Assembly: GCF_020012125.1 (NCBI RefSeq)
Contig: NZ_JAIFAG010000001.1
Location: 3,038,001 to 3,102,000, forward strand
Direction of reading: 5' to 3'
From: Hymenobacter psoromatis
GTDB lineage: Bacteria; Bacteroidota; Bacteroidia; Cytophagales; Hymenobacteraceae
Length of the DNA: 64,000 bases
The notes under the pieces were generated by a model. The model had not been told where the DNA came from and did not search any database. It was given only the letters and a program-made list of their open reading frames with translations. Below are positions 15,469 to 48,943 of the stretch, piece by piece. How positions within the stretch are numbered: the stretch's first letter is position 1; every line of letters begins with the position of its first letter. The position numbers and the translations under genes were made by a program.

Positions 15469-15542
15469 GGGGGATTAGCTCAGCTGGCTAGAGCGATTGC
15501 TCCGCAAGCAATAGGTCATCGGTTCGACTCCGATATTCTCCA
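15469..15542 (+). tRNA. tRNA-Ala, anticodon CGC
   Basis: The 74 bases fold into a full cloverleaf: acceptor GGGGGAT/ATTCTCC, D-stem GCTC/GAGC, anticodon stem ATTGC/GCAAT, T-stem ATCGG/CCGAT with loop TTCGACT, discriminator A. The acceptor has a G3-U70 pair, the known identity element of tRNA-Ala. The seven-base anticodon loop is TCCGCAA, so the anticodon is CGC. Position 33 is then C rather than the nearly invariant U, which is unusual. CCA is not encoded. A strong terminator follows. Confidence 0.85.
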
Positions 15543-15546
15543 CTTG

Positions 15547-15580
15547 AGTCCTCGCCCCTACCGGGCGGGGACTTTTTTTT
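15547..15580 (+). terminator. Intrinsic terminator of tRNA-Ala
   Basis: An 11-bp stem (AGTCCTCGCCC with GGGCGGGGACT, one G-U type mismatch) with a five-base loop is followed by eight T residues, 4 bp after the tRNA. Confidence 0.9.
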
Positions 15581-15590
15581 GCCAGCCGGC

Positions 15591-15633
15591 CTCAAAACAA
15601 AAAACCCGTTTCCAGGTCAGAAACGGGTTTTTT
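15591..15633 (-). terminator. Intrinsic terminator of tmRNA
   Basis: On the minus strand an AAACCCGTTT/AAACGGGTTT stem with a nine-base loop is followed by TTTTTTG. It lies 12 bp after the tmRNA 3' end. A T-run on the + side means it may also act in the other direction. Confidence 0.85.
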
Positions 15634-15644
15634 AACTTTTTTAG

Positions 15645-16013
15645 TGGAGCTGCAGGGATTCGAACCCTGGTCCAGACAAGGAAGCCAACGTGCTTTCTAC
15701 GTGCGTAGCTATGCTTGGATTTTCGAGGCATTTCAGGCGCACATCAGGCCCTTAAAATTCCCTTATCGGCAGTTGGGTTTCGCCTCCGAATCACCGCTCT
15801 TCGAAGGCTAGTTCTTACTTACGACGCGCCGAACTCCCAGGTGTAAAAACGTACCCAGGCGGCACGATGGCAGTGCTTAGTTCTAAACTAGGCAGCCATG
15901 GCGTACGAATAGTCGCCGATTGTTGTTTGATAGATTTTTTGGCGGGAGAGCTTCCATCAACTCCCGGCACGCTTACCCGCAACTTGCGCAAGCTGTCAAT
16001 TCCGGTCAGCCCC
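15645..16013 (-). ncRNA. ssrA: Transfer-messenger RNA
   Basis: On the minus strand the RNA starts GGGGCTGACCGG and ends TTCGAATCCCTGCAGCTCCA, the two ends pairing as a tRNA-like acceptor (GGGGCTG with CAGCTCC, including G3-U70). The T-arm GGGTTCGAATCCC is clear. A resume codon GGC opens a frame GDYSYAMAA followed by TAG, matching the pattern of Bacteroidota tags such as G(E/D)xxYA(L/M)AA. The RNA is about 369 nt. It rescues stalled ribosomes with SmpB and marks the peptide for degradation. The end positions are set from the pairing and could shift by a base. CCA is not encoded. Confidence 0.93.
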
Positions 16014-35649: not shown

Positions 35650-35661
35650 CTCGTGATAAAT

Positions 35662-35776
35662 TGGCGGCGACCGACTCTCCCACCGGTGAAGGCAGTACCA
35701 TAGGCGCACCGGGGCTTAACGACTCTGTTCGGAATGGGAAGAGGTGAACACCCGGGCTAAAGCCACCATTGCTGGC
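35662..35776 (-). rRNA. rrf: 5S ribosomal RNA
   Basis: The minus strand carries the conserved 5S middle, CCCATTCCGAACAGAG, within a roughly 115-base stretch whose ends GCCAGCAATGG and GGTCGCCGCC can pair partly as the terminal helix. It lies about 75 bp after the 23S gene. End positions are approximate. Confidence 0.9.
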
Positions 35777-35849: not shown

Positions 35850-38765
<2,916 letters not shown>

Positions 38766-38955
38766 TCTCGCTTGCGATTCATCCTACACGGGGTAGAATG
38801 AATTGCTTATATCTTGTGGATATAAGCCCGCTTTTTACTTCTCTCTCTTGTTTTCCCTTACGTCAAAGAACGTTTACTACTCAATTAGTAGTAAATGCGG
38901 AATAGCTGAACTACTTCACGCTAAACCAGTAGTCTATTTGGTATAGATGGCATAG

Positions 38956-39020
38956 TGGGTCTGCCTAGGCTCGAACTAGAGACATCTACATTATCAGCTT
39001 AACGCTCTAACCACAAGCCC
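38956..39020 (-). pseudogene. Degenerate tRNA-Ile (GAT) in the 16S-23S spacer
   Basis: On the minus strand the sequence starts GGGCTTGTGGTTAGAGC and ends GGCAGACCCA, with anticodon loop CTGATAA (anticodon GAT). Compared with a normal tRNA-Ile, about 9 bases are missing: the 5' strand of the D-stem and its start (TAGCTCAGT-type) are gone, so only 65 nt remain. The acceptor has a C-A mismatch and the anticodon stem TTAAG/TGTAG has two weak positions. The T-arm is intact. The gene cannot fold into a normal cloverleaf. The spacer lacks a tRNA-Ala, which many Bacteroidota have there. Confidence 0.75.
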
Positions 39021-39108: not shown

Positions 39109-40627
<1,519 letters not shown>

Positions 40628-40856
40628 AAATATTCCAAATTCACTACCTAAGTAGGAACGATGTCGAGTGCTAGTTCGACTCGTATTGACGAGTTCAATT
40701 TTAATGTTACGCTTTTGCTTACTTACGTAAGCATACTTACCATTTGTCTTTTCCAGTCATTCAAAGAACGTTTGTTGCTTCCAGTTGAAGCAACATGGTG
40801 GGTAGCATTAGCTTCCCTTTCTTACCGTTTGCAAGACCCTATTTTAATTGGGAGTG

Positions 40857-40886
40857 CAAAGGTAGAATAAAATTTTTATTTCGCAA
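40857..40886 (-). promoter_or_regulatory. rRNA promoter P1 (nearest the 16S gene)
   Basis: Minus strand: TTG at 40884-40886, 19-bp spacer, TACCTTTG at 40857-40864. This matches the Bacteroidota -33/-7 pattern with the ideal spacing. The sequence after it reads CACTCCC, shared with P3 and P5. Confidence 0.8.
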
Positions 40887-40948
40887 GTTTCGGATGAAGT
40901 TTATTTTTCATCTTTTTTTTACGTTTCGCTTCCGGTCGAAGCGGGGTG

Positions 40949-40978
40949 CAAAGGTAAGAAGTTTATTTCAGTTTTCAA
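40949..40978 (-). promoter_or_regulatory. rRNA promoter P2
   Basis: Minus strand: TTG at 40976-40978, 19-bp spacer, TACCTTTG at 40949-40956, followed by CACCCCG. Lies 92 bp upstream of P1. Confidence 0.8.
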
Positions 40979-41120
40979 AATCTTCTGAGAGAATTTTTGA
41001 AGATTTTAAGTTAACTTCTTAAATTTAGTCGACTTCGATTAAACCGACTTTTATCTGCAAAAGCTTGACAGTTAAGTTTTTGTTTTTGTGTTCTACTATC
41101 CCTTATTCTGTTTGGGAGTG

Positions 41121-41150
41121 CAAATGTAGCGCTTTTTTCTGGATTCGCAA
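41121..41150 (-). promoter_or_regulatory. rRNA promoter P3
   Basis: Minus strand: TTG at 41148-41150, 19-bp spacer, TACATTTG at 41121-41128, followed by CACTCCC. The -33 context AACTTGCGAA is the same as in P1. Confidence 0.8.
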
Positions 41151-41222
41151 GTTTGGAGCAAAAAAATAAGTTTTTTTGACCTCCTCAACAGCGTTCCCGA
41201 TGAGCCGTTATTTAAACGGGTG

Positions 41223-41254
41223 CAAAGGTAAGGCCGCAGGTTTTGAATTTGCAA
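41223..41254 (-). promoter_or_regulatory. rRNA promoter P4
   Basis: Minus strand: TTG at 41252-41254, 21-bp spacer, TACCTTTG at 41223-41230, followed by CACCCG. Spacing is 2 bp longer than ideal. Confidence 0.6.
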
Positions 41255-41319
41255 AACAACTTGGAGAATTATTTTTCCGAGTCCTCTTTGGTTACCCTTG
41301 TCCGTTCGATTTGGGAGTG

Positions 41320-41327
41320 CAAAAGTA
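41320..41327 (-). promoter_or_regulatory. rRNA promoter-like box P5 (-7 only)
   Basis: Minus strand reads TACTTTTG followed by CACTCCC as in P1 and P3. No TTG lies at 19 bp. It may be a decayed copy. The rest of 40628-41400 is AT-rich and holds no gene I can support. Confidence 0.5.
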
Positions 41328-41400
41328 CTCGGAGAAGGCGCTTGTTGGTAACACTTAGTCCATTCTTTTCTTGGCATTAACTAAATTTTGGCGTCCGTGC

Positions 41401-41444: not shown

Positions 41445-42710
41445 CTAGTGGCCAGGGTCGGACTCGAAAAAAAGCGTTAGCGCCGGGCGGAACTGACGGG
41501 CGCGCCGGGCTTCGTATTGGTAAAAAAGCTGACCTAGCTGCGCCAGGAAAGGCTCGCCAACGGTGTCGTAATCATAGGCGGCATCATTGATAATACCATC
41601 TTGATTAACGTAAAGGATAGCGCTGAGCATAAATTCGGACTGGTGCAGCGAGTCGGCGAAGTAAGCGACATCAGCCAGGTAGCCGTGCGACATACCCACG
41701 ATGTTAAAAATGCGCAGGCCGGGCTGCGGCATGGCAGCTGGGCTGCGGCCGTAGTAGAGATACTTCTTGTAAGCGTCGAAGTACTTGGCGCTGGTATAGG
41801 CGCTGAAGTGGCTGGCGTGGGGGGTTAGATGCAAGTATTGCCGTAGGAAAGCATAATCGGGCGCGGTGAGGCTGGGGCGCTGAGCGGGGGGTAGGGACTC
41901 AGGGAATAGCGCGCTTTGGAGCAAGGCGGTGATATCGAGTAGCGGCAGATTATTGGCCGTGGTGAAATCGTAGGGCTTATGGATGATGCGGCTACCCACT
42001 TTGTAGGCGCGGCCGGCGAAGACGGGCCCAAGCGGCGGCGCGGGCGTGCGCGGGTTAGTTTGGGCAGGCTGCTTATAGAGGGTATCGCCGATGATGGTAA
42101 GAAAAGCGATTGGATTGGTAGAGCGGTTGGCGGCCGTGTCGCAGGGGGCGAAACGGCGCACAATGCGGCTACCCGCGTAGCCTAACTGCTGCAGGCGGTC
42201 ATTAAGTGGTTTTTGACCAAGAAACTCGTAGAGCCGATTGTAGGCCAGGTTATCGCTGACGAGCAGCATCCGTTTGATGTAGTTACCAACGGTGGCCTGC
42301 TGGTCAGAATCGGCGGGGGCGGCGAAGGGCACGGGAGTCTGGCAGCGCCCGGCAACCCCGGTGGCCATGATGGTATTCCGGGTAATTGAGAGGGGTAGGG
42401 CGTGCAGCTTTTCGAGGGATAGTAGCGCCACGGGCAGCTTAACCAGACTAGCGGGATTGAAATACTGCTGCGGATTGAGATGGTAGGTGTGGCGGGTGAA
42501 GTGCGGCACGTTTTGCGCGTCGCGATTTATCTGGGTGTAGATAATCTGGAGCTGGTACGTGGCGGGCCGGGCCAGCACCGGAGCCAACGCGGGACTACTG
42601 CGAAGCAGGCTATCGAGTAGCGGCGAATCGGGGGGAGCTTGCTGCGCCTGGGCCGGACGCATTAGGAAAAGCAGTAATAATAGGCTGGGCAGCAGCGAGC
42701 GGATAAACAT
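41445..42710 (-). CDS. Serine hydrolase, class A beta-lactamase-like
   Basis: The 421-residue product has a signal peptide (SLLLLLFLMRPAQAQQ). The penicillin-binding fold shows the nucleophile motif SLVK at about 88-91 (FNPASLVKLPVALL) and SDN at about 152-154 (LLVSDNLAYNRLYEF). A clear KTG box is not obvious; KVGSRI is a possible stand-in. At over 400 residues it is longer than class A beta-lactamases, so it may act on a peptide or ester rather than a drug. Exported to the periplasm or membrane. A terminator lies upstream, so it has its own promoter. Confidence 0.8.
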   Translation of the reverse strand: MFIRSLLPSLLLLLFLMRPAQAQQAPPDSPLLDSLLRSSPALAPVLARPATYQLQIIYTQINRDAQNVPHFTRHTYHLNPQQYFNPASLVKLPVALLSLEKLHALPLSITRNTIMATGVAGRCQTPVPFAAPADSDQQATVGNYIKRMLLVSDNLAYNRLYEFLGQKPLNDRLQQLGYAGSRIVRRFAPCDTAANRSTNPIAFLTIIGDTLYKQPAQTNPRTPAPPLGPVFAGRAYKVGSRIIHKPYDFTTANNLPLLDITALLQSALFPESLPPAQRPSLTAPDYAFLRQYLHLTPHASHFSAYTSAKYFDAYKKYLYYGRSPAAMPQPGLRIFNIVGMSHGYLADVAYFADSLHQSEFMLSAILYVNQDGIINDAAYDYDTVGEPFLAQLGQLFYQYEARRARQFRPALTLFFESDPGH

Positions 42711-42729
42711 CGGATAGGATTATAAAGAA

Positions 42730-42758
42730 AAAGGCCGTGATACCTCATCACGGCCTTT
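42730..42758 (-). terminator. Intrinsic terminator of the lipoprotein gene
   Basis: AAAGGCCGTGAT and ATCACGGCCTTT form a perfect 12-bp stem with a five-base loop. On the minus strand it is followed by TTCTTTATA, 43 bp beyond the stop codon of the gene at 42802. Confidence 0.9.
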
Positions 42759-42801
42759 ACTATACTGAAGCGAAGGAGCGGCGGCAGGCCCCTACCCCAC
42801 C

Positions 42802-44031
42802 TTAGTTGGCCAGCGGCACGCGGCGGCGAGCTAATAGCAGGTTGCTGTCGGTTTGACGCCAGTTGTAGCCGGTGCCGAAGGGCAGCGGGCGGGCGTGGTG
42901 TAGACTGTCGTGGTAGGCGGTGGTCAGCTCAGGCTGGTACTGCTTGGCAAAGAGGTTGATAGGCCGCCGGTAGGTGCCGTAGTAGGTAAACTGCCAGTCG
43001 CTTTTAGGAAAATATTTCATGCCGATGCCCGAGTCATCTTGCAAAATATACTGGCTTTGGGCCAGAATAAGGTTGCGGATTTTCGAGAAATACGACTTGT
43101 GCATGAGGTAGGTGGCCGACTTCACGTAGGTAGTCAGCGGACCGAGGCTGCGCACGTAGCGCAGGGGCGCATCTTTGGCACCCAATTTCCAATCGCTGAG
43201 GTCGGCGGAAAAGTAATAGATAGTTTTCTGGCTGCCGTCGGCGGCTTGCAGCCGCAGCTCGGCTCCCGGAATAACCTTGGCACCGGGCGCGCGGGTAGTG
43301 TCGCTGACTTCGTGCAGCTGGCCCTGGGCATCGAGCTGCACGGAGCACACGGCCAGCAGGTGGTTGCCGGTGCGAGCCGCGAAGAGCATTAGCAGGGGCA
43401 CGGCCCCGTCGAGGTTCACCGATTTGAGGTCCACGGCCATGTCGTTGGTGCGGAAGAAGCTGAAATTCAATACCGACCACAACGAGGTTTTCACGGCGGG
43501 GAAGAGAGCGGGGTTATCGAGGGTGGCGCGGCCGGGCACGCTGCCCACCGGCTCCAGGCCAACTAGCACATAGGTTTTGCTGTCGGGAAACAGCGTGAAG
43601 ACGTTTAGAAAATCGGGGCCGCTGAAGGGATAAAATAGGGTAGGGCTATTCTGGCGCACCGAGTCCAGCTCAGTGGAGGCCCAGTGGCTCATGCGGTCGG
43701 TGTGGGTAGTGCGGTATTTCGCCCAGCTTTTATTCTGGTCTTTGGCAAAGGCTTGCCACGCGGGCTGGGCCGCCAGCGCGGCTAGGGGCGAGCCGGCCCG
43801 CGGGAGTAGGCCGGCGAGGTAGGCGGCCACATTCTGCACGTTGGCCGTGTCGGGGGCGGGCGGTGGGGTAGTCGCGGCCGGGCGCGTGGGCGGCGGGGTA
43901 GCCGCCACGCGGGCGGCCGTATCGGCCGGAGCTTTGGTGGTAGTGGCCGTTTGCTTGTCGGTGGTGGCATTGGAACAGCCGGCCAGCAACGCGACGAAAG
44001 CGGGCAGCAGCGGCAGTAGAGAAAGGCGCAT
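42802..44031 (-). CDS. Large hypothetical lipoprotein
   Basis: The 409-residue product has a lipoprotein signal (LPAFVALLAGCSNATTDK). A Thr/Pro/Ala linker leads to a globular part that begins YLAGLLPRAGSPLAALAAQ and has the distinctive segments LFYPFSGPDFLNVFTLFPDS, YVLVGLEPVGSVPG, DLKSVNLDGAVPLLMLFAA and IYYFSADLSDWKL. I do not recognise the family, but the even hydrophobic pattern suggests a folded domain and the segments look conserved-type. It lies 39 bp downstream of the APC permease gene on the same strand and may be cotranscribed. Confidence 0.75.
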   Translation of the reverse strand: MRLSLLPLLPAFVALLAGCSNATTDKQTATTTKAPADTAARVAATPPPTRPAATTPPPAPDTANVQNVAAYLAGLLPRAGSPLAALAAQPAWQAFAKDQNKSWAKYRTTHTDRMSHWASTELDSVRQNSPTLFYPFSGPDFLNVFTLFPDSKTYVLVGLEPVGSVPGRATLDNPALFPAVKTSLWSVLNFSFFRTNDMAVDLKSVNLDGAVPLLMLFAARTGNHLLAVCSVQLDAQGQLHEVSDTTRAPGAKVIPGAELRLQAADGSQKTIYYFSADLSDWKLGAKDAPLRYVRSLGPLTTYVKSATYLMHKSYFSKIRNLILAQSQYILQDDSGIGMKYFPKSDWQFTYYGTYRRPINLFAKQYQPELTTAYHDSLHHARPLPFGTGYNWRQTDSNLLLARRRVPLAN

Positions 44032-44070
44032 GGAGCAACGAGGTAAGCGGAGGTTTTTACAAAAAATTCT

Positions 44071-45465
44071 TCAAGCGGCAGAGCTTTCGCCCACTGTGGG
44101 CACGGGCGCTTCGGCCGCGGGCCGGGGGGTAGGGCCCAGCTTAGTAGCGGCGAAATACACTAGTAGGCCGCTCGCTACCGTGGCCAGACCATAGGCCGAC
44201 TCGTAGGGCTTATCCTTTATAATAAAGATGAGCGTCCAGGCACTGAGGGCCAGGAACAGCAGCGGCGTGAAGGGGTAGCCCCAAGCACGGTAGGGACGCG
44301 GCAGCTCGGGCTGACGCCAGCGTAGCACGAACAAGCCTAACACGGTGAGAAACGTGAACAGATTTAAGACAAAGCCCGCGTAGACGAGCACGGCGTTAAA
44401 ATCGGGCTTCAGGATAAAAACTAGGGTAATAGCTACTTGCAACAGCAGTGCTCGCACCGGAATGCCCGCCGCACTGCGGTTCGCCAGCCAGCGTAGGGCG
44501 GGCAGGTCCTCCCCCATCGTTTGCACAATGCGAGGACCGGCAAAAATCATGGCACTGATGGTGGAAACCAGTAGCGCCGCGATGACGCCCCCCATGAGCC
44601 GCCCCAGCGCGGGGCCGAACAGCCAGCTGGCCGCCAGGTAGCCTACCTCCAGCTGACCCTTAAGCACCGCCAGGGGGGTAGCGCGCAGAAATACGTAGTT
44701 CAGCCCTACATATAATAGGAGTACGACGGCCGTACCGGTAAGCAGAATGCGCGACAGGTTGCGCTGAGGGCGCTCGATTTCGCCGGTGAGGTACACGGCG
44801 GCGTTCCAGCCCGAGTAGGCATAGCTAACGTACACCAACGACACTGCGAAGGTCGGGCTCAGCAGCGCCCGCCAGCCCGCCGGGTCGGGCGCGAAGGCCA
44901 GCGGCTGCGCGTTGCCCAGCACCAGGCCGACCCCGATAAAAGCGACCAGAATCAGCACTTTCAACGCCGTGATAATCACCTGTAAGCGGCTGCCGGCGCG
45001 GGTGCTGCGGCCATGCACCAGCGCCAGGGCCAGCACTACGGCCACGGCCAGTAAGGTGCCGCCAGTGAACGAGCCCCCCGGTGCCAGCGGCGCGGCCAGC
45101 GCTGGCCACACGCTCTGCGAGTAGCGCGCCAGAGCCAGCGCCGCCAGGGCAGTAGGCGCGGCAAAGCCTACGGTGGCCGACACCCAACCCGATAAAAACC
45201 CCAGCGCCGGATGGTAAATCTGACTCAAATAATGATACTCGCCGCCCGAGCGGGGCATGGCGGCCGCCAACTCGCCGTAGCTCACGGCCCCGCACAATGC
45301 AATGAGGCCGCCTACCCCCCACAACATCAGCAACGCAAAACCGCTCTGGATGCCCAGCACCTGGAAGCCCAGGCTAGTAAAAACCCCCGTGCCCACCATA
45401 TTGGCGATGACAATGGCGGCCCCGGTGCGGAAATTAATTTTATAAGGACTGGACGAATCGGGCAT
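44071..45465 (-). CDS. APC-superfamily amino acid permease
   Basis: The 464-residue protein has about twelve hydrophobic segments. The first contains the APC substrate motif (AIVIANMVGTGVFTSLGF), followed by ALCGAVSYGELAAAMPRSGG and EYHYLSQIYHPALGFLSGWV, the standard second and third helices of the family. YVSYAYSGWNAAVYLTGEIE is the usual sixth helix. It takes up an amino acid with protons or exchanges one; the substrate is not readable. It heads a likely operon with the lipoprotein gene. Confidence 0.92.
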   Translation of the reverse strand: MPDSSSPYKINFRTGAAIVIANMVGTGVFTSLGFQVLGIQSGFALLMLWGVGGLIALCGAVSYGELAAAMPRSGGEYHYLSQIYHPALGFLSGWVSATVGFAAPTALAALALARYSQSVWPALAAPLAPGGSFTGGTLLAVAVVLALALVHGRSTRAGSRLQVIITALKVLILVAFIGVGLVLGNAQPLAFAPDPAGWRALLSPTFAVSLVYVSYAYSGWNAAVYLTGEIERPQRNLSRILLTGTAVVLLLYVGLNYVFLRATPLAVLKGQLEVGYLAASWLFGPALGRLMGGVIAALLVSTISAMIFAGPRIVQTMGEDLPALRWLANRSAAGIPVRALLLQVAITLVFILKPDFNAVLVYAGFVLNLFTFLTVLGLFVLRWRQPELPRPYRAWGYPFTPLLFLALSAWTLIFIIKDKPYESAYGLATVASGLLVYFAATKLGPTPRPAAEAPVPTVGESSAA

Positions 45466-45517
45466 GGGCGGCGGCTTGCACCCGCAAAGATGCGCTTAGC
45501 CCGGCCATTCCCCGCCC

Positions 45518-46066
45518 CTACCCCTCGGCTACGGCGGTGGCGGCCTTGGGCTTTTTATAAAGCGGCACGGTGCTGCACGGTTCGCCGTACATGATGCTGG
45601 CGGCCACGGGCAGCAGCCGCTGCATGATGGCGACGTAGGCAAAAGTGGGCACCGGCTTGTCGCCGCAGCCCTTGATTACCAGCTTAATACCTTGATAATC
45701 AACGGGATTAATAGCGGCAATAGCTTCCTCAAACAGCGACTGCTCCAACGCTTCCAGGTTGCCAAATACGTAGCGATGGGCGTGGCCTTGCAGCTTACCA
45801 GCCAGCAGCATGTAGGCCCAGGTGGGCACAATGGCATCTGCGGAGCAGATAATGGCCACGTTCTGGCCGTCGTACTGCGTCCAGTCGTGGGTTTTCACAA
45901 ACTCGCGGAAGTCCTTTTCGCGCAGCATCAGGCCGTGGAAGAGGTTATCCTTAATATCGTACACCACCCGGTTGCCGGGATGGATGAAATCCTCCAGGTT
46001 AAGGGTGACGAGGCCCGAGGCGGCGACGCGGTTGACGAAGAGTGGTTCCATAGTTTCAGTCATCAA
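45518..46066 (-). CDS. DUF2480 family protein
   Basis: The 182-residue product reads EPLFVNRVAASGLVTLNLED, FHGLMLREKDFREFVKTHDW, VAIICSADAIVPTWAYMLLA and LVIKGCGDKPVPTFAYVAIM, the signature order of DUF2480, a family nearly restricted to Bacteroidota. It has two conserved cysteines in CSADAI and KGCGDK, and has no known activity. It lies upstream of a short DUF-to-APC gap and 60 bp downstream of tsaB on the same strand. Several ATG codons near the start (MMTETMEP) leave the exact start open by a few residues. Confidence 0.9.
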   Translation of the reverse strand: MMTETMEPLFVNRVAASGLVTLNLEDFIHPGNRVVYDIKDNLFHGLMLREKDFREFVKTHDWTQYDGQNVAIICSADAIVPTWAYMLLAGKLQGHAHRYVFGNLEALEQSLFEEAIAAINPVDYQGIKLVIKGCGDKPVPTFAYVAIMQRLLPVAASIMYGEPCSTVPLYKKPKAATAVAEG

Positions 46067-46125
46067 TTATCAGTCATTAATTAGCGGTCATCAATTAGCA
46101 GGTATACTCTGCTCGTTAATAACTA

Positions 46126-46830
46126 TTAGTTGATAACTGACCTGGGGGTAGTCGTGTAAACTTCTTTTAAGTAAAAAGGCTCATAATAAGCCACATCGCA
46201 GAATTCCTGGCGCTGGTAGGCGGCCCAGGCCAGCTCACCGAGGCTCACGGCGGAGGGCTGCACATTGGCCAGGAAAACAGCGTTGGGATTATTCTGCACC
46301 AAAGCCTCAAACTTGGCCGCGCCCGACCCACAGAATAACACCGCGTGGTGGGCTAAATGTTCGGCCAAGCTACCGGCATCGAGCACGAGATTGGTGGGGG
46401 GTAGCAGCTCGCAGCCATCGGCGGCGTAGAGGGCCGTGTACACTTCCTGCCGCCGGGCATCCAACATGGGGCAGTATAAATAGGTATTGGGGCGCGGCGT
46501 ATGCGCGGCCGCCTGATGGGCCAGCGCGGGCAGCGTGCCCACGGCCAGCAGCGGAATATCGAGGGCAAAGCACAGGCCTTTGGCGGCGGCGGCCCCGATG
46601 CGCAGGCCGGTGTAGGAACCAGGGCCGTCGCTTAGGGCCACGGCTCCGAGGTCGGCCAGCGCGTGGCCGGTATTGGCTACCAGCTGCTCGATGAGCACCG
46701 TAAGGTGAGTAGAGTGCGACTTATCGAGGCGCAATTCGGCCTGGCCGAGCAGGCGGCCATCGGCGAGGTGGTGCAGCGCCACGGCGCAAATCGGCGATGA
46801 GGTTTCGAGCGAAAGTAGGAGGGTAGGCAT
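46126..46830 (-). CDS. tsaB: tRNA threonylcarbamoyladenosine biosynthesis protein TsaB
   Basis: I choose the ATG at 46828-46830 (MPTLLLSLETSSPICAVAL); another ATG lies four codons upstream. The ASKHA-like N-terminal domain shows SLETSSPICAVAL, KSHSTHLTVLIEQLV, and LSDGPGSYTGLRIGAAAAKG, the conserved core of TsaB. TsaB works with TsaD and TsaE to make t6A37 of tRNAs that read ANN codons. About 234 residues. Confidence 0.93.
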   Translation of the reverse strand: MPTLLLSLETSSPICAVALHHLADGRLLGQAELRLDKSHSTHLTVLIEQLVANTGHALADLGAVALSDGPGSYTGLRIGAAAAKGLCFALDIPLLAVGTLPALAHQAAAHTPRPNTYLYCPMLDARRQEVYTALYAADGCELLPPTNLVLDAGSLAEHLAHHAVLFCGSGAAKFEALVQNNPNAVFLANVQPSAVSLGELAWAAYQRQEFCDVAYYEPFYLKEVYTTTPRSVIN

Positions 46831-46914
46831 AAGTAGCGGCAAGTTCCGGCCTACAGCGCGGTATTTACAAACTGGTCCCGGCTGGCCGCCGCCTTACCAC
46901 CCGGCCCGGCCCGC

Positions 46915-46955
46915 AAAAGCGCCGCCCCAGCCAAAGCCAGAACGGCGCTTTTTTT
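46915..46955. terminator. Terminator after the small hypothetical gene
   Basis: AAAAGCGCCG and CGGCGCTTTTTTT form a 10-bp stem with an 18-base loop. T-runs follow on both strands, so it can close the minus-strand gene at 46977 and stop readthrough the other way. Confidence 0.75.
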
Positions 46956-46976
46956 AAGCTAGCAGCCTACTGCTAC

Positions 46977-47237
46977 TCAGGCCGCCATCGGCAAGCCCTC
47001 GGGGTAGAGCGGGAGTACTCGGGCGGGGCTGGCGGGCAGGGTCGCCGCTGGCACGGCGAATTCGTCGGCGTGGTGGCGCAGGGCGCGCATGAGCAGATAC
47101 CTGTACTTTTCGGCATCGGCCAGGGCCTGAGATACGGCTTGCACGGCATCGGCGTAGGCTACTACGGGCTGCAGCTCGCGGCGGGGCCGACGGGCCTCAA
47201 AAACGTGGCTGGCCAGGTAATCAACAGGATTTTTCAT
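46977..47237 (-). CDS. Small hypothetical protein
   Basis: The 86-residue product begins MKNPVDYLASHVFEARRPRREL and continues with a helix (VVAYADAVQAVSQALADAEK, YRYLLMRALRHHADEF), then a Pro/Ala tail. It has no signal peptide or membrane segment. It lies between two terminator-like or AT-rich regions and seems to stand alone. No family recognised. Confidence 0.6.
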   Translation of the reverse strand: MKNPVDYLASHVFEARRPRRELQPVVAYADAVQAVSQALADAEKYRYLLMRALRHHADEFAVPAATLPASPARVLPLYPEGLPMAA

Positions 47238-47534
47238 GACGGAATTAAGACGGATAATTGGCTGTCTACTAAACAGCTGATGACTGCATTAAATTCCACC
47301 TAAACCTAAGGTTATAATATTGAAAATCAATAGGTTAAAAATATTTTTTTCAGTCCCGAAGAGACTTATTTTTTGGCAAGGTTTTGGTATTATGGGTAAG
47401 GCCGAACGGTACTTTTGCCAGTTACGTATTAGTACAAGCAATAAGTACTGGCCGTTAAACCAGTCGCTGTATTTTCGGTCCAACCCAGCGTTGTTTCCAA
47501 CAACTAAATCCGGGAGCTACGGCCCCGTTTCGTC
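47238..47534. other. AT-rich intergenic region without a supported gene
   Basis: The 297 bp between a minus gene and a plus gene are AT-rich and should hold both divergent promoters. TACTTTTG at 47410-47417 (+ strand) fits the -7 consensus for the exported gene at 47535, with a TTG 23 bp upstream. A 64-codon minus frame (47289-47483) has no protein-like features and I reject it. Confidence 0.5.
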
Positions 47535-47831
47535 ATGCGTCGCAATCTGTTTTTTTCCTTGTTCTTGATTATAGGTTTGAGCTTGGGGCTCAGCAGCTGC
47601 GCGCCGGGCGTGTATACCAGCGCCAGCATTGGCACCGGCTATGGCTACCCGGCCTACGGCTACGGATACGGCGGCTACTACGGGCCGCGCTACTATGGCC
47701 CACGCTACTACGCGCCGCGCCCGATTATTGTGGCACCGCGGGTCTCGTACCGGGGCGGCTTTGGTGGGGGCGAGCGGGGCTGGCACGGCGGTGGCGGTGG
47801 TGGCCACTACGGTAGCCGGCGCGGCCGCTAG
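47535..47831 (+). CDS. Small Tyr/Gly-rich lipoprotein
   Basis: The 98-residue product has a lipoprotein signal (LFLIIGLSLGLSSCAPG, lipobox LSSC). The mature part is a repeat of Tyr, Gly, Pro and Arg (YGYGGYYGPRYYGPRYYAPRP), then a Gly-His-rich tail (GGERGWHGGGGGG). Such composition suggests an unstructured surface protein. The next gene (47930) shares the YYAPRP motif. Function unknown. Confidence 0.75.
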   Translation: MRRNLFFSLFLIIGLSLGLSSCAPGVYTSASIGTGYGYPAYGYGYGGYYGPRYYGPRYYAPRPIIVAPRVSYRGGFGGGERGWHGGGGGGHYGSRRGR

Positions 47832-47929
47832 TAGCGTTCTTTTTTCAACCTTCCACCTTTTTCTTCCTTAGCCGGGCATTGGCCCGCTTTTCCTCTCACT
47901 TAACCGACGTGCTTCGGCACGCATACGCC

Positions 47930-48214
47930 ATGCGCTTCCGCCCCTTGTTATTCGCTTTGCTGTTAAGCTTGCTCAGTGCGAGCGCGGCTTCAGCCCAAGT
48001 CTTTATTAGTGCCCGCATTGGCAGCCCCTACGGCTACTACAACCGCCCATACTACGCGCCCCGGCCCTATAGCTACTACCCCCCCGTGGTAGCGCCGGTG
48101 GTGGTAGTGCCGCCGCCCGTGTACTACGCGCCGCGCCCGATTTACTATGCGCCGCGCCCGCGCTTTTATTACCCCCGGCCCTACTATGGACGTGGCTACG
48201 GCCGCCGGTGGTAG
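47930..48214 (+). CDS. Small exported Tyr/Pro-rich protein
   Basis: I choose the ATG at 47930 (MRFRPLLFALLLSLLSASAASAQ), a clear signal peptide; the open frame reaches back to 47879 but the first 17 residues are not typical. The mature part is nearly all Tyr, Pro, Arg and Val, with repeats YYAPRP, IYYAPRPRFYYPRPYY and a final GRGYGRRW. It is a low-complexity paralogue or convergent copy of the gene just before it, 98 bp upstream. A strong terminator ends the pair. Confidence 0.72.
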   Translation: MRFRPLLFALLLSLLSASAASAQVFISARIGSPYGYYNRPYYAPRPYSYYPPVVAPVVVVPPPVYYAPRPIYYAPRPRFYYPRPYYGRGYGRRW

Positions 48215-48230
48215 GTTGTCCGGTTTCAGC

Positions 48231-48276
48231 TTACCAAAAGCCCCCGCTAGCTTTGGCTGGCGGGGGCTTTTGGTAA
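48231..48276. terminator. Bidirectional terminator
   Basis: TTACCAAAAGCCCCCGC (48231-48247) and GCGGGGGCTTTTGGTAA (48260-48276) form a perfect 17-bp stem with a 12-base loop, with TTTT within the stem arm. It separates the + exported genes from the - Rossmann gene. Confidence 0.85.
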
Positions 48277-48298
48277 ATTATCTCTATAACAACTTGAC

Positions 48299-48943
48299 TC
48301 ACAAGGCCTCAGAGCTGTGCACGCGGATGCCGCCGCCATCATCTTCGGCGGCGCGCAGCATGGCCTGGGCTACGGCGGTAGCGGTCACGGGGCGGTACTT
48401 GGCCAAGCCGCCACGCAACAGCGGCCGGGCCAAGGTTAGTACAGCTGCGCTCAGGCGCTCGCTTAAGCGGGGGGTAGGCCGCTCGCCGAGCAGCAGCGAA
48501 GGCCGGAAAATATGAATGGCCCGGAACGGCGTCTGGCGCACGGCTTCCTCCATTTCACCCTTCACGCGATTGTAGTAAAAGCGCGCGTGTGCGTCGGCCC
48601 CCAGCGCGGACACCACCAGGAACTGCGCCGCAAAATTGGCCGCCGTGAGGGCCGCCAGCTGCACCACATACAGAAAATCAACGCGGTAAAAAGCCTCCCG
48701 TGAGCCCGCCTGGCTGATAGTCGTGCCTAGGCAGCAGTATACATCATCGGCAATGAGGCGCAGGCGCTCGGCTTCAAGCTGGTCGAAATCGGTGATTACC
48801 TGGGTGAGCTTGGGATGCTGGGTGCTTACCGGGCGGCGACCCACCACAATCACTTTGGCGTAGCGCTCCGAAGCCAGCAGTAGGGGCAGCAACGCACTGC
48901 CGATAAGGCCAGTAGCACCGGCCAGGAGTGCGGTTTTTTTCAT
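48299..48943 (-). CDS. NAD(P)-binding Rossmann-fold protein (Htatip2-like)
   Basis: I choose the ATG at 48941-48943 (MKKTALLAGATGLIGSALLPLLL), which puts the dinucleotide-binding loop GATGLIGS at the N-terminus as in atypical short-chain dehydrogenases. Other segments are KVIVVGRRPV, DDVYCCLGTTISQAGS, LVVSALGADAHARFYYNRVKG and ALHIFRPSLLLGE-like (seen as AIHIFRPSLLLGE). The YNRVKGE stretch carries the Tyr-x3-Lys catalytic pair (YYNRVK). Similar proteins are annotated as NAD(P)H-binding or oxidoreductase HTATIP2-like. About 214 residues. Substrate unknown. Confidence 0.87.
   Translation of the reverse strand: MKKTALLAGATGLIGSALLPLLLASERYAKVIVVGRRPVSTQHPKLTQVITDFDQLEAERLRLIADDVYCCLGTTISQAGSREAFYRVDFLYVVQLAALTAANFAAQFLVVSALGADAHARFYYNRVKGEMEEAVRQTPFRAIHIFRPSLLLGERPTPRLSERLSAAVLTLARPLLRGGLAKYRPVTATAVAQAMLRAAEDDGGGIRVHSSEAL

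Follow-up and report, generated by a model that had tools for sequence, protein, structure and literature searches.

The 16S-23S spacer of a complete rRNA operon of Hymenobacter psoromatis was found to hold a tRNA-Ile(GAT) that has lost 9 nt of its D arm, and we conclude, at a probability of roughly 94%, that this remnant is a dead, redundant copy of the gene and an ordinary lineage-specific pseudogene. The operon lies within the 64,000-nt stretch of DNA analyzed here (the window), and its features are collected in Table 1. As the other rRNA operon of the genome keeps a perfect copy, the remnant is best read as a redundant gene in ordinary decay rather than as a new kind of tRNA.

Table 1. Features of the window operon (window coordinates)
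Feature	Position	Strand	Basis
tRNA-Ile(GAT) pseudogene, 65 nt, 9-nt deletion and nine substitutions	38956..39020	(-)	Rfam RF00005 below threshold; no ARAGORN call; alignments with other-operon copy and orthologues
16S rRNA, 1516/1516 identical to the other operon's copy	39111..40626	(-)	Rfam and comparison
Full-length 23S rRNA with 25 differences relative to the other operon's copy	35855..38770	(-)	Rfam and comparison
5S rRNA, 112/112 identical to the other copy	35659..35770	(-)	Rfam and comparison
16S trailer strand of pre-16S processing stem, GTCTTTTCCATCATTCAAA	39040..39058	(-)	Complementary to leader 40746-40765
16S leader strand of pre-16S processing stem, TTTGAATGACTGGAAAAGAC	40746..40765	(-)	Duplex prediction and direct sequence reading
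3' part of spacer, identical in both operons (homogenised), includes 23S leader processing strand	38771..38928	(-)	158-nt exact match
Putative promoter region, five TAnnTTTG motifs upstream of 16S (-238 to -701)	40850..41330	(-)	Motif scan

Identity and lesions of the spacer tRNA-Ile

The Rfam tRNA model (RF00005) aligned end to end with the remnant on the minus strand, at the limits given in the initial annotation, but its score of 24.4 bits fell short of the gathering threshold of 29, and ARAGORN called no tRNA at this position. Set against the intact tRNA-Ile of the second operon, the remnant lacked TAGCTCAGG, or GTAGCTCAG in an alternative register. This deletion removes A14 and the 5' side of the D stem, in agreement with the earlier estimate that about nine D-stem bases were missing. 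The deletion junction falls between 39014 and 39013 and between two GT dinucleotides, suggesting that replication slippage was the cause.

Nine substitutions were also present, leaving 56 of the 65 shared positions identical, and seven of the nine fell in stems. Two pairs were broken, one in the acceptor stem (C-A) and one in the anticodon stem (A-G), in line with the mismatches first noticed in these two stems, and three further pairs were weakened to G-U. Of the 17 pairs outside the D stem, 15 could still form; four of the 15 were wobbles, three of which had newly arisen. One T-stem pair had changed on both sides from G-C to A-T and so still paired. The anticodon (GAT) and the T-loop were kept, as was most of the pairing. 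As a cloverleaf the remnant reached only about -0.9 kcal/mol, compared to -26.5 kcal/mol for the intact cloverleaf, and its free fold was no better than those of shuffled sequences (z -0.40); neither comparison gave the alternative full cloverleaf that the initial annotation had named as evidence against a lesion. The remnant was neither recognized as a cloverleaf by tRNA models nor, as described below, conserved among relatives, as a functional bacterial tRNA-Ile(GAT) would be. What it combined, in this one genome, was homology at the orthologous place, a disrupting lesion and loss of constraint, the properties of a tRNA pseudogene.

The second operon and the same operon in relatives

The genome assembly (5.15 Mb in 7 contigs, completeness 99.96%) contains two rRNA operons, with two 16S genes and two 5S genes. 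The other operon (C1:623222-628350) has a 501-nt spacer that holds an intact tRNA-Ile(GAT) together with a tRNA-Ala(TGC), and when all 42 genomic tRNA matches were typed with ARAGORN (30 + 12) this copy was the sole functional tRNA-Ile(GAT) among them. Both the tRNA list and the comparison of the two spacers thus bore out the expectation that a good copy stands in another operon. The copy was already redundant when its decay began, and the earlier phrase of an essential tRNA caught decaying is therefore an overstatement. Elsewhere in the window, ARAGORN placed a tRNA-Ala(CGC) and, adjacent to it on the opposite strand, a tmRNA with tag GDYSYAMAA (15469-16013).

Operons for rRNA are difficult to assemble, and an intact tRNA-Ile might look damaged through a misassembly or a sequencing error. 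This is very improbable here: the two operons were resolved separately, with distinct spacers and neighbors, on one 4.84-Mb contig, and nine scattered substitutions and a 9-nt deletion in a clean spacer that can be aligned with its orthologues are unlike a read error.

The window spacer aligned at 83-88% to spacers in four relatives (G078, G082, G010 and G083), where orthologues of window genes 41445-48943 stand in the same order beside the operon. This conserved order of neighboring genes establishes the five operons as orthologous. In all four relatives (4/4) the orthologous operon carried an intact tRNA-Ile alone and no tRNA-Ala; the tRNA-Ile of G078, G082 and G010 was identical to the good copy of the window genome, and that of G083 differed from it by one compensated T-stem pair only. 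The window spacer likewise has no tRNA-Ala. The initial annotation was right about this absence but had set it beside the decay, of which it is no part; since the four relatives carry tRNA-Ile alone, the lack of tRNA-Ala is ancestral to the operon. Two other genomes, G077 and G048 (L053, L054), had a syntenic operon with a 242-nt spacer and no tRNA, which may reflect loss or replacement by conversion. Where relatives showed an intact tRNA-Ile, it was 97-100% identical in nearly all of them and 92% identical in G060 and G061.

Among 120 genomes of the genus, of which fewer were informative because many are draft assemblies without the operons, a decayed spacer tRNA-Ile was found in none except the window's own, and all nine substitutions and the deletion were unique to it. 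An exact-pattern search of public genomes with the deletion junction and most of the remnant gave no match. A first search of the genus had pointed to a degenerate form common to a dozen species; this was rejected, as each spacer read contained an intact tRNA-Ile.

The relatives also varied in their operon sets. Three operon types (with tRNA-Ile, with tRNA-Ile and tRNA-Ala, and with neither; L084 and L100 compared) were present in G078, and two in the window genome, which has no tRNA-less type. No tRNA-Ile(GAT) was seen in several near-complete Hymenobacter assemblies (G110 (L068, L172, L176, L178), G015, G081, G109, G074, G005, G022 and G105), and in G110 neither tRNA-Ile(GAT) nor tRNA-Ala(TGC) was among the best 30 tRNA matches. 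A 986-N gap beside one operon of G110, and the lack of any 16S in three of the assemblies without tRNA-Ile(GAT), point to operons missing from the assemblies.

Constraint on the remnant and state of the operon

We compared the changes on this branch in the tRNA (9 of 65 sites) with those in the adjacent 5' spacer (5 of 90; Fisher p = 0.09), a tract that is partly under constraint of its own as a processing stem. The remnant is not slower-evolving than its surroundings. Random substitution in simulation gave equal or better pairing in 22-61% of trials and produced one or more compensated pairs in 13-22%, both depending on the transition bias, so that no excess of preserved pairing was evident in this small sample. 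A substitution density at least equal to that of the spacer, together with the lack of a pairing excess, fits unconstrained decay, while the compensated T-stem pair and the kept anticodon leave room for a brief period of constraint after the deletion and count to that extent against plain decay.

The initial annotation had also offered a truly D-arm-reduced tRNA, which would here be a working tRNA-Ile comparable to those of animal mitochondria. The retained anticodon, T-loop and pairs speak for it, the compensated pair included. We nevertheless think it highly unlikely and set it aside, as an intact copy is present in the genome, an acceptor and an anticodon-stem pair are broken, the pairing is no better than chance, with no sign in the small sample that selection kept the stems, and the form occurred in 1 of 120 genomes; the D-arm-less tRNAs in the papers searched were all metazoan mitochondrial.

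Apart from the tRNA, the window operon looks intact in its rRNA genes, its promoter motifs and its processing stems. The two operons, A and B, carry different yet self-complementary versions of the pre-16S stem, as seen by duplex prediction and direct reading, and the predicted leader-spacer duplex was stronger within operon B than between the leader of A and the spacer of B. The 23S leader was predicted to pair with the 23S-5S spacer, giving an intact 23S stem; outside such core stems, duplex predictions over long stretches are noisy. The exact match between the operons covers the last part of the spacer, and the 5' part is not identical. The motif scan found TAnnTTTG upstream of both operons, which we take to be the -7 element of Bacteroidota sigma-A promoters, with a putative promoter role here. 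The two 23S copies differ from each other only between positions 76 and 661 (0-based), within the first 662 positions, and the three 23S copies of the sister species G078 are identical over that stretch.

The remnant sits between the 16S and 23S processing stems, a placement that could suggest a structural element kept for pre-rRNA processing. We consider this idea very unlikely, as neither stem is part of the remnant and the orthologous operons of G077 and G048 do without any tRNA.

Course of the decay and comparison with known tRNAs

On this reading, decay of the redundant copy started from an ancestral operon with an intact tRNA-Ile alone, beside a second operon with tRNA-Ile and tRNA-Ala. 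The 9 nt between the GT dinucleotides of the D arm were probably lost by slippage, and the redundant copy also accumulated the nine point changes in this lineage. Transcription of the remnant as part of the pre-rRNA presumably continues, but the product should neither fold nor mature as a tRNA, nor be charged; that the locus yields a mature D-arm-reduced bacterial tRNA-Ile, or a tRNA-like fragment with its own role, seems to us very unlikely. Loss of the gene is tolerated since tRNA-Ile comes from the other operon, and since the processing stems needed to free 16S and 23S are intact and lie outside the tRNA.

The window operon offers a snapshot of the loss of a duplicate tRNA with survival of the operon: the gene is intact in close relatives, decayed here and, in other genomes, missing from the orthologous operon. 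The case is also a warning that the spacer tRNAs of one operon say little about the tRNA set of a genome.

The remnant shares operon position, anticodon and most of its remaining positions with the spacer tRNA-Ile(GAT) of Hymenobacter, but differs from it by the D-arm deletion and the substitutions and is not recognized as a tRNA. A search of the open-access literature turned up no close parallel, which is weak evidence. As in other bacterial tRNA pseudogenes, a redundant copy decays while a good copy stays; in contrast to these in general, the remnant lies inside an otherwise intact rRNA operon. The D-arm-less tRNAs of animal mitochondria are likewise unable to form a D-arm helix and are functional, with adapted partner proteins (PMC7609411, PMC4013460), whereas the remnant is a redundant copy with broken stems.
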